Shown one piece after another: positions 16,011-18,107 of a stretch of DNA of 64,000 nt (position 1 is its first letter; each line of letters starts with the position of its first letter). This stretch comes from Erysipelothrix tonsillarum DSM 14972. GTDB lineage: Bacteria; Bacillota_I; Bacilli_A; Erysipelotrichales; Erysipelotrichaceae. The DNA lies in contig NZ_KB892378.1 of NCBI RefSeq assembly GCF_000373785.1, positions 62,001-126,000 of the forward strand, read 5' to 3'. The position numbers were made by a program, and so were the translations under genes. The notes under the pieces were generated by a model. It saw only the letters and a program-made list of their open reading frames with translations, was not told where the DNA came from and ran no database searches.

Positions 16011-17504
16011 TTACCGCATTTCAGTTAAGCCAGTTTCCGTTAATTCGTAAATCGTTTCGAAGACTGCCTCCAATAACATTCGATCGTGTGTAACCGCGAT
16101 AATGGCTCCCTCAAATTGATTCAAAAGCTCATATACCGCAGCAACACTCATTGGACTTAAATTACGAGTAGGCTCATCTAAAATTAAGACCTTTGGATTT
16201 TGAAGGACGAGTTTTAAGAGTGATACTTTCGCCTTTTGACCTCCAGATAATAAATGCATCGGTGTATTCATCTCTGTCTCGGTAAATTTCAAACTACCAA
16301 GGTGATTGGTAATGAGGCCCCGTTCTTCTCTTGAACCCTGCTGAACACAATTTTCAATCGGTGTGAGATCAAAACAAATGTTTTTCTCATAGGACTGGTG
16401 CATCACACCTACCTCTCCTTCCAGCGCATGAATTAATTTGTGAATCAACGTTGTTTTCCCAACTCCATTTCGACCCACAATAGCAATACGATCGGTACTA
16501 TAGACTTCCAAATGAATTCCGCGGACAAGAATTCGCTGCTCAATTTGTAATGTTTCACATTCGAATTTCAGTATTTTTTTTCGATGAACTTGGCTCTGCG
16601 TTGGAAATGTTAGTTTTATTGCAGATTCTGAATCCAATTTTTCAGGAATGACTTCGCGATTAAAGCGTCGTTCCATAGATTTTATATTATGCATTTTCTT
16701 TTTTAAAAGTCGCCCTTTGGCTGGATCTTGGCGAGTCTGTGTTCGTTGTCGATGTTCAACTTTTTGGTAGAGTTGACGCCACCGATCTTCTTGCTTTTGT
16801 TTTTCCTGTTGTTGCATCTTAACAGCATGGTTGTGTGTGTCATGGTGATGCAAATAGAGATTAGTATAAGCGTCATAGGTACCTTCGAATACGGTGACAG
16901 TGGAACGGGTTTTACGGTGTGTTTGTTCTAGATGAACAATCCGGGTAGCACACCTACGAAGGAGTACTGGATCATGGGATACAAACATAATGGGCGTTGT
17001 TTGGGAAAGCATCCAAGATTCAAGCCACTCCAATGTTTCAAGATCTAAATCGTTGCTGGGTTCATCTAAGAGATAACAATCACAAGGATGCAACATCAAA
17101 CGCATGATTTGTAAGCGAACTCGTTCACCACCACTAAAGGAATGAAGTGGTCGATCCAGGTCTTCAATCCCTAAGGTTGGCAATACCTCCTTAATGATTC
17201 GCCCTAAAGACCCGTAAAGATCCCATTGATCCGAAATGATATAGGATAACGCATCCGTTTCTAATTCATTTTGATTCAACTCTTGATTTAAAGATCCAAA
17301 AACCAAGGATGGCTTACTCATTGTTTTCGTGACCTGTAGGTTTTGAAATTCATCGCGACCTGCGAGCGCTTTGAGGGTGAGGCTTTTCCCATTCCCTTCT
17401 TCCCCAATTAATGCAATACGATCTTTTTGATTTACAGACATAGAAAAAGACGCGATCAGTTCGCGTCCTGTTTCCGTCTTAATATTAAGACTAAAATTAA
17501 ACAT
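16011..17504 (-). CDS. ABC-F ATPase, probable ribosome-protection (antibiotic resistance) type
   Basis: A 497-residue protein with two ABC domains and no membrane segments. Domain 1 has Walker A GEEGNGKS (about 34-41), signature FSGGERVRLQ and Walker B YLLDEPSNDLD. A basic, Gln-rich linker (about 225-290) reaches the ribosome in this class. Domain 2 has Walker A GRNGVGKT and signature LSGGQKAK. Its Walker B region LILDEPTRNLSPMS resembles Lsa/Vga/Msr-type resistance proteins more than housekeeping Uup or EttA. A short leader ORF able to mask its ribosome site precedes it (17510-17558), and a good promoter lies at 17584-17612. Drug spectrum cannot be read from sequence. Confidence 0.88.
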   Translation of the reverse strand: MFNFSLNIKTETGRELIASFSMSVNQKDRIALIGEEGNGKSLTLKALAGRDEFQNLQVTKTMSKPSLVFGSLNQELNQNELETDALSYIISDQWDLYGSLGRIIKEVLPTLGIEDLDRPLHSFSGGERVRLQIMRLMLHPCDCYLLDEPSNDLDLETLEWLESWMLSQTTPIMFVSHDPVLLRRCATRIVHLEQTHRKTRSTVTVFEGTYDAYTNLYLHHHDTHNHAVKMQQQEKQKQEDRWRQLYQKVEHRQRTQTRQDPAKGRLLKKKMHNIKSMERRFNREVIPEKLDSESAIKLTFPTQSQVHRKKILKFECETLQIEQRILVRGIHLEVYSTDRIAIVGRNGVGKTTLIHKLIHALEGEVGVMHQSYEKNICFDLTPIENCVQQGSREERGLITNHLGSLKFTETEMNTPMHLLSGGQKAKVSLLKLVLQNPKVLILDEPTRNLSPMSVAAVYELLNQFEGAIIAVTHDRMLLEAVFETIYELTETGLTEMR

Positions 17505-17509
17505 GACAA

Positions 17510-17550
17510 AACTTCCTCCTATTTTATGATTAATGATTTAGAAAGAAGTT
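17510..17550 (-). promoter_or_regulatory. attenuator stem masking the ABC-F ribosome binding site
   Basis: AACTTCTTTCT (17540-17550), within the leader ORF, can pair over 11 consecutive positions (three G-U) with AGGAGGAAGTT (17510-17520), which contains the ABC-F Shine-Dalgarno. The loop is 19 bases. A ribosome stalled in the leader ORF would break the stem and expose the site. Confidence 0.6.
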
Positions 17551-17558
17551 CTGTTCAT
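17538..17558 (-). CDS. leader peptide MNRTSF upstream of the ABC-F gene
   Basis: Six codons and a TAA, starting at ATG 17556-17558, with AAAGGCGGTGGGAAC as ribosome site. Its coding bases form one arm of the stem that covers the next gene's ribosome site. Leader peptides of this size precede inducible erm, msr and vga-type genes, where drug-stalled ribosomes switch on expression. The role here is inferred from layout. Confidence 0.55.
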   Translation of the reverse strand: MNRTSF

Positions 17559-17583
17559 GTTCCCACCGCCTTTTGTTAATGTT

Positions 17584-17612
17584 ACTGTACAAAATAATAT
17601 CAGCGATGTCAA
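17584..17612 (-). promoter_or_regulatory. promoter of the ABC-F leader
   Basis: TTGACA (17607-17612), 17 bases, TACAGT (17584-17589). The start near 17577 leaves room for the leader ORF and its ribosome site. Confidence 0.7.
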
Positions 17613-17621
17613 CTTTGGGAC

Positions 17622-18107
17622 TTAAAGGCCCAATATTTCACCAATTAATTCAATCAGTGTTTGTTCGTCTGTTACAACTGTACCTTGGAGTTTAATCAAT
17701 CCAACAGTGTAAAGGTTTACGTAAGAAAATTGTGATTCACCAACTTCACGCAATGCATGGATTTTTTCAAGATTTTGAGCACCTTGTTGGCGACTGTCAG
17801 TATAAAGTCCAATCATTGGAATATTGGCTTGATAGGCAACGCCGACTTCCGACGCCACACCCGCATCAATGGTTTGACCATCCAAGACTGCAATCACTAA
17901 ATCCGATTTTAATAATGCATCCGTGTCCGCTTTTGCAATCATCATTGAATTAGCGTAACTATTTTTATCATTAATCTCCATCTGTTCCTGAGGTAGATAG
18001 ATTTCAACTGAAGGATAAGCAGCACGAATTTGTGCCACAACCTCCGCATTATAACGAAACTCCATATGTGTAAAAAGTGGACTTGCAAAATAAATTTTCT
18101 TCATCAT
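17622..18107 (-). CDS. nucleoside 2-deoxyribosyltransferase
   Basis: A 161-residue enzyme that exchanges the base of 2'-deoxyribonucleosides for nucleotide salvage. The family pattern is visible. KIYFASPLF is at the N-terminus, then AKADTDALLKSDLVIAVLDGQTIDAGVASEVGVAY, which carries the substrate Asp, the nucleophile-type Glu (in SEVG) and the DxGxxxE spacing. YTDSRQQ follows. It starts after AAAGGGGGTA, nine bases beyond the Na/Pi cotransporter stop, so it is probably co-transcribed. Two adjacent ATG codons are possible starts. Confidence 0.9.
   Translation of the reverse strand: MMKKIYFASPLFTHMEFRYNAEVVAQIRAAYPSVEIYLPQEQMEINDKNSYANSMMIAKADTDALLKSDLVIAVLDGQTIDAGVASEVGVAYQANIPMIGLYTDSRQQGAQNLEKIHALREVGESQFSYVNLYTVGLIKLQGTVVTDEQTLIELIGEILGL

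Follow-up and report, generated by a model that had tools for sequence, protein, structure and literature searches.

A putative drug-sensing leader attenuator at an ABC-F gene of Erysipelothrix tonsillarum, with a conserved terminator-like hairpin inside the coding sequence

How might a six-codon open reading frame placed just in front of an ABC-F ATPase gene control that gene, and which signal would it sense? This question is raised by a locus of Erysipelothrix tonsillarum DSM 14972 situated in a window of 64,000 nucleotides (the whole stretch of DNA that was analysed, 62001-126000 of its contig; the genome measures 1.93 Mb). An earlier reading of the sequence, hereafter the original prediction, had reported a promoter, a ribosome site, an ORF encoding MNRTSF and a complement to the Shine-Dalgarno (SD) sequence of the ABC-F gene, and all of these are present on the minus strand. 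The elements are arranged as follows:

17584..17612, minus strand: predicted sigma-A promoter, TTGACA-17-TACAGT (10/12 matches)
17564..17572, minus strand: ribosome binding site of the leader ORF, AAGGCGGTG, read from the sequence
17539..17562, minus strand: 5' arm of the masking hairpin, containing the leader start and codons (RNA fold)
17538..17558, minus strand: leader ORF MNRTSF including its stop, ATG AAC AGA ACT TCT TTC TAA
17520-17515, minus strand: SD of the ABC-F gene, AGGAGG, preceding the ATG at 17504
17499..17521, minus strand: 3' arm of the masking hairpin, containing the ABC-F SD, spacer and AUG (RNA fold; leader/SD swap test, p<5e-5)
16011..17504, minus strand: ABC-F ATPase gene, 497 aa, with two ATPase domains and linker helices at 210-256 and 261-283

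The leader is a short upstream ORF with a ribosome site of its own, and the position of the promoter suggests that it is co-transcribed with the ABC-F gene. The leader RNA comes to ~73 nt and the whole layout to ~135 nt.

In RNA folds the leader codons pair with the ABC-F SD, in agreement with the proposed masking. The pairing is real, but it was originally described as an 11-position complement with a 19-base loop, whereas the hairpin actually comprises 23 bp, interrupted by a single bulged A, and closes on a loop of 17 nt; along with the SD it buries the start codons of both the leader and the ABC-F gene. Its energy was -27.1 kcal/mol (z -6.2), a stability reached by 0 of 200 shuffled sequences, and a separate run gave z -6.7 with 0 of 500 shuffles equally stable. 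With the leader free, the unpaired probability of the SD was 0.00; it was ~0.5 when a ribosome footprint, modelled as -14 to +15 of the P-site codon, was placed on any of the six leader codons. A footprint at the leader AUG suffices to open the stem, as judged by the constrained folding. As background we used 400 kb of the same genome, comprising 289 genes with an ATG and an SD, and the longest complement between a leader ORF and an SD was that of the ABC-F gene in the window (16 contiguous pairs; the runner-up, from a GTG ORF, had 13). The masking hairpin was also considered as a terminator in its own right (stem followed by UUUAAUUUUAG) and rejected, as its base is AU-rich and the terminator scan did not call it. 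An Rfam search of the region gave sub-threshold matches only, the best being Phe_leader with 21.8 against 55 bits, which we take as chance.

The arrangement is found in related species as well. An ortholog of the gene (group A, 49-71% identity) occurs in eight of the 12 other genomes of the genus, and a more distant ABC-F gene forming a paralog group (group B, 43-46% identity) in seven; two genomes lack both at this threshold, and one, G005, holds only a 36% homolog. In all eight group A orthologs the position of the MNRTSF leader is taken by a short ORF that starts with ATG and has a ribosome site to itself. Counting the window gene, AAGGCGGTG is identical in 7/9 group A genes, the remaining two having variants, and a TTGACA/TTGACT-17-TAnnnT promoter lies 77-81 nt 5' of the gene in 8/9. 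The leaders read as follows:

Group A orthologs: MDRNSF, MDRKSF, MDRISF, MYNSSYTA (two genomes), MRTTPTH, MKIALS, MNSSSIN
Group B: MGNAPTLKHNN, MGNAPTLKHNK, MGNAPRLKT, MGKLPH, MGQFLII, MGENSVDKK (some TTG-started)

The peptide sequence varies among both groups while the complementarity to the SD is kept, the leader codons of group B (seven genomes) being complementary to their own SD. The original prediction had looked to close relatives for conservation of the leader ORF and the complementarity, and every group A or B relative keeping the gene was found to have both. Because indels make MAFFT place the arms wrongly when the leader regions are aligned, covariation was judged by a swap test between leaders and SDs. 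The mean duplex energy was -19.3 kcal/mol for native and -15.3 kcal/mol for swapped combinations, with permutation p<5e-5 for 14 sequences and 4.5e-4 for the divergent subset. It should be underlined that the stability of the hairpin differs considerably: z-scores range from -6.7 to -0.9 across the two groups, the weakest in group A being that of G003 (L008, z -0.9), and those of group B are mostly modest (-1.4 to -2.9 in 6/7). The conservation with co-evolution spans ~50% protein divergence plus a paralog group. The gene is flanked by a nucleoside deoxyribosyltransferase-like gene upstream and a PCC-domain gene downstream, and since these neighbours are common only to the three closest genomes, leader and gene stay together in differing surroundings.

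In a terminator scan of 17380-17760 the interval from the leader ORF to the ABC-F start gave no intrinsic terminator, the sole terminator-like site lying inside the ABC-F ORF:

17444..17469, minus strand: intrinsic-terminator-like hairpin AGGACGCGA-ACTGA-TCGCGTCTT, with the T tract running to 17444, at ABC-F codons 12-21

This hairpin is GC-rich, carries a T5 tract and lies 36-61 nt into the ORF. A hairpin followed by TTTTTC or TTTTAC is present at codons 12-21 in 16/16 group A and B genes, with a bulge in that of G001. The codons change in pairs, Gly-Arg being combined with Ala-Pro, Ala-Ser or Thr-Ser (GGG CGC+GCG CCT, GGA CGC+GCG TCT, GGA CGT+ACG TCT), and two base pairs have changed on both sides (GC/AU in seven and CG/UA in five sequences). 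Sliding the partners lowered the pairing from 87.5% to 44-71%. Moreover, each of the 16 hairpins was more stable than synonymous recodings drawn from the codon usage of the genome (z -2.1 to -5.3; p <0.0005 to 0.036), and of the gene's 384 windows, those at codons 16-26 showed the largest excess of synonymous identity when groups A and B were compared. Among the 289 gene starts of the 400-kb background, only three of which score at all, the window gene has the top terminator score. Selection at the RNA level on codons 12-21 is well supported by sequence, and the hairpin would most likely terminate transcription. A comparable in-ORF terminator was found in none of ~79 other homologs of the family, which have five other terminator-like sites, mostly located elsewhere. 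Most of these homologs are preceded by very short ORFs (MKN, MKK, MRN, MYRK, MYKHK and others), and in Erysipelotrichaceae their leaders are often long and structured (upstream regions L012-L022 and L117-L196). Within this sample, the combination of a short compact leader with an in-ORF hairpin appears to be limited to the genus.

With regard to the relation between the two hairpins, they are predicted to coexist, the terminator core keeping a probability of 1.0 whatever the state of the leader in the window gene. Folding found no antiterminator pairing of the freed leader arm with the in-ORF hairpin in any leader state, and no mutually exclusive terminator and antiterminator structures for the window gene.

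The original prediction took the locus to be a translational attenuator. That part holds in so far as leader codons mask the main SD, but a purely translational switch is unlikely to be the whole story because of the conserved terminator-like hairpin within the coding sequence. We find it reasonably probable that the ABC-F gene is controlled by a leader attenuator of the translational cat/erm kind that responds to drugs, and that termination within the gene is probably coupled to it. As the masking and the in-ORF hairpins are both conserved in related species, they suggest a two-layer switch, with ABC-F on only when drugs stall ribosomes. In the absence of drug, the six-codon leader would be translated and its ribosome quickly released, after which the leader codons would refold onto the ABC-F SD and AUG as in the computed structure. 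The ABC-F start being untranslated, the polymerase would meet a naked GC-rich hairpin and U tract at codons 12-21 and stop, leaving an RNA of ~134 nt when counted from the predicted start site. A ribosome held by drug on the leader would block the 5' arm and free the SD, as constrained folding indicates. A second ribosome could then start on ABC-F and, at about codon 8 or beyond, would presumably keep the in-ORF terminator unfolded, which would allow full-length message and protein to be made. A polarity-like coupling is the simplest reading of this sequence of events.

Since a stall at the leader AUG opens the stem, drugs halting ribosomes at or soon after initiation would do, namely lincosamides, pleuromutilins and streptogramin A, and since arrest at this AUG would be enough, the leader peptide would be free to vary. 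Phenicols or oxazolidinones could act at the Ser/Thr codons 4-5 of the leader; these codons are no independent evidence, because UCU-type codons are forced by the pairing with GGAGG. As the hairpins coexist without an antiterminator, termination could be relieved only by a ribosome that arrives on the main ORF in time. This timing is the weak point of the explanation we consider best, because the second ribosome must load while the polymerase covers ~60 nt, a demanding step should the polymerase run ahead. The in-ORF U tract, which is only five long, the weak masking hairpin of G003, the modest ones of most group B genes and the failure of the ABC-F protein to match any curated resistance family also count against it.

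Other explanations were weighed against this coupled attenuator. The leader hairpin may do all the work, as in attenuators of the cat-86/ermC type, the in-ORF hairpin being a polymerase pause site or an element of mRNA stability. The masking of the SD is clear and the in-ORF hairpin folds independently of the leader state, both of which agree with such a reading, and pause hairpins play such a role in vmlR (PMC9226507). On the other hand, a GC-rich stem kept with covariation directly before the T tract in every group A and B gene, and outscoring all other gene starts of the background, speaks against this reading, which we regard as rather unlikely. We hold as improbable a further variant in which the in-ORF terminator is a functional check: full-length transcription would be obtained only if an ABC-F ribosome passes about codon 8 despite the drug, and ABC-F, by rescuing such ribosomes, would promote its own transcription, so that a positive-feedback attenuator would sense in the leader and test in the ORF.

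The leader ORF and the hairpins may also serve no drug sensing at all, fixing a constant low expression or answering general translation or temperature stress. The unconserved leader peptide fits this proposal, as does a stem that would open for any slow ribosome on the leader; yet ABC-F genes with short leaders have repeatedly been found to be drug-induced (PMC9226507, PMC10201436, PMC10314930), and short leaders stand upstream of most homologs of the family, so a role of this kind seems distinctly improbable. As for the reading that the hairpin arose by chance in AT-rich upstream sequence and that the leader is not translated, a short SD-preceded ORF is indeed common upstream of genes (81/289 in the background). 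Co-evolution over such protein divergence and in a paralog group, the swap test, and a complement exceeding that of every other background gene all disfavour chance, which we judge extremely improbable.

The ABC-F protein contains two complete ATPase domains with a helical linker between them and no transmembrane part. Among solved folds, VmlR2, PoxtA, Uup, YbiT and Sal(B) come nearest to it, VmlR2 also being first among sequence matches to solved ABC-F chains. The label 'Lsa/Vga-like' of the original prediction is not borne out, as the protein scored 127.6 bits against a cut-off of 750 for Lsa and 234.6 against 725 for Vga in NCBIfam. It was under the cut-off of every curated NCBIfam resistance family (Lsa, Vga, Msr, Sal, CplR, OptrA, VgaF), and the closest model was ribo_prot_ABC_F (297 versus a cut-off of 380). 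Identity is only ~29% to plasmid-borne relatives such as Vga(A), and ~30% or less to reference resistance proteins. The genome has several full-length ABC-F genes; the one in the window is probably ribosome-protecting, and a function in resistance is likely on the basis of its regulation. The protein is 67-71% identical to its three syntenic orthologs and the neighbouring proteins are 90-97% identical, indicating that the ABC-F protein evolves unusually fast.

The closest parallels in layout are cat-86 and ermC, where the short leader ORF likewise has a separate ribosome site and the main SD is held in a hairpin until a ribosome stalled on the leader opens it. In cat-86 the leader region itself forms one arm of the hairpin, as in the window gene. 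Unlike these systems, the one in the window controls an ABC-F gene, its stem buries both start codons and it has an additional terminator-like hairpin within the ORF. Transcription-translation coupling in Gram-positives is debated, and an SD-masking leader ORF combined with such a hairpin would tie read-through by the polymerase to the start of translation in an organism of this group. The layout is compact and conserved in two paralog groups, and it adds an uncharacterised Erysipelotrichaceae ABC-F clade to the candidates for drug-inducible intrinsic resistance.

Leader ORFs of ABC-F genes sensed by PTC drugs include vmlR MIN (PMC9226507), cplR MRI, lsaA MAGN and vmlR2 MK[L/Q] (PMC10201436) and msrD MYLIFM (PMC10314930), and regulation of ABC-F genes has been described as an abortive termination of transcription that stalling on the leader relieves (PMC10201436). 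Drug induction through leader stalling is the natural inference for the window gene too. The cplR gene of Clostridioides difficile (uORF MRI) is likewise a chromosomal ABC-F gene with a short leader ORF, SD sequestration and premature termination (PMC10201436), but a single hairpin both masks its SD and terminates, ends at the start codon and has an antiterminator alternative, whereas the masking and terminator-like hairpins of the window gene are separate and coexisting, with the latter within the ORF. In Bacillus subtilis, vmlR (uORF MIN) shares the leader ORF and an SD-sequestering hairpin (PMC9226507); its 219-nt leader carries an anti-antiterminator, a pause hairpin and an upstream terminator, none of which is present in the much shorter leader of the window gene. 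The msrD gene also has a six-codon leader (MsrDL, MYLIFM; PMC10314930), but in its case the ribosome on the leader itself unwinds the terminator, which is placed between the leader and the gene. The terminators of vmlR, cplR and msrD precede or reach the start codon, in contrast to the one inside the window gene. An intrinsic terminator that is situated within coding DNA and governed by ribosomes in the presence of drug is known from bmrB-bmrCD of Bacillus subtilis (PMC4191407), where it is located in the leader ORF, and not in the regulated gene, and has antiterminator alternatives.

The leader and its arrangement had been thought to be undescribed. Leader ORFs before chromosomal ABC-F genes are in fact well described, and it is for this arrangement and clade that we found, provisionally, no description: neither Erysipelothrix nor its family is mentioned in PMC10201436 or in the uORF4u paper (PMC10219788), and no such leader appears in the titles and abstracts of the papers retrieved for Erysipelothrix and ABC-F, in a search that covered few subscription papers.

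Three further observations concern the surroundings of these elements. A second ABC-F gene of this genome (L217, G000:C2:207180-208586), located outside the window, is CplR/Vga-like and above the generic ribo_prot_ABC_F cut-off; a possible three-codon leader ORF, MNK, lies ~200 nt upstream of it and resembles the cplR and vmlR leaders. Group B leaders (L011, L023-L028) contain a conserved short hairpin, ACTAGAAAGGTAGCA...GCTAnCCGGTGA, just 5' of the leader ribosome site and ~50-90 nt upstream of the ABC-F genes, which is absent in group A. Finally, in 7/9 group A genes the ribosome site of the leader, AAGGCGG, shows complementarity to CGYCUU in the 3' arm of the in-ORF hairpin (17574-17564 and 17455-17444 in the window). 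Two orthologs break this match, which is possibly the reason why the non-consensus C of the ribosome site has been kept.
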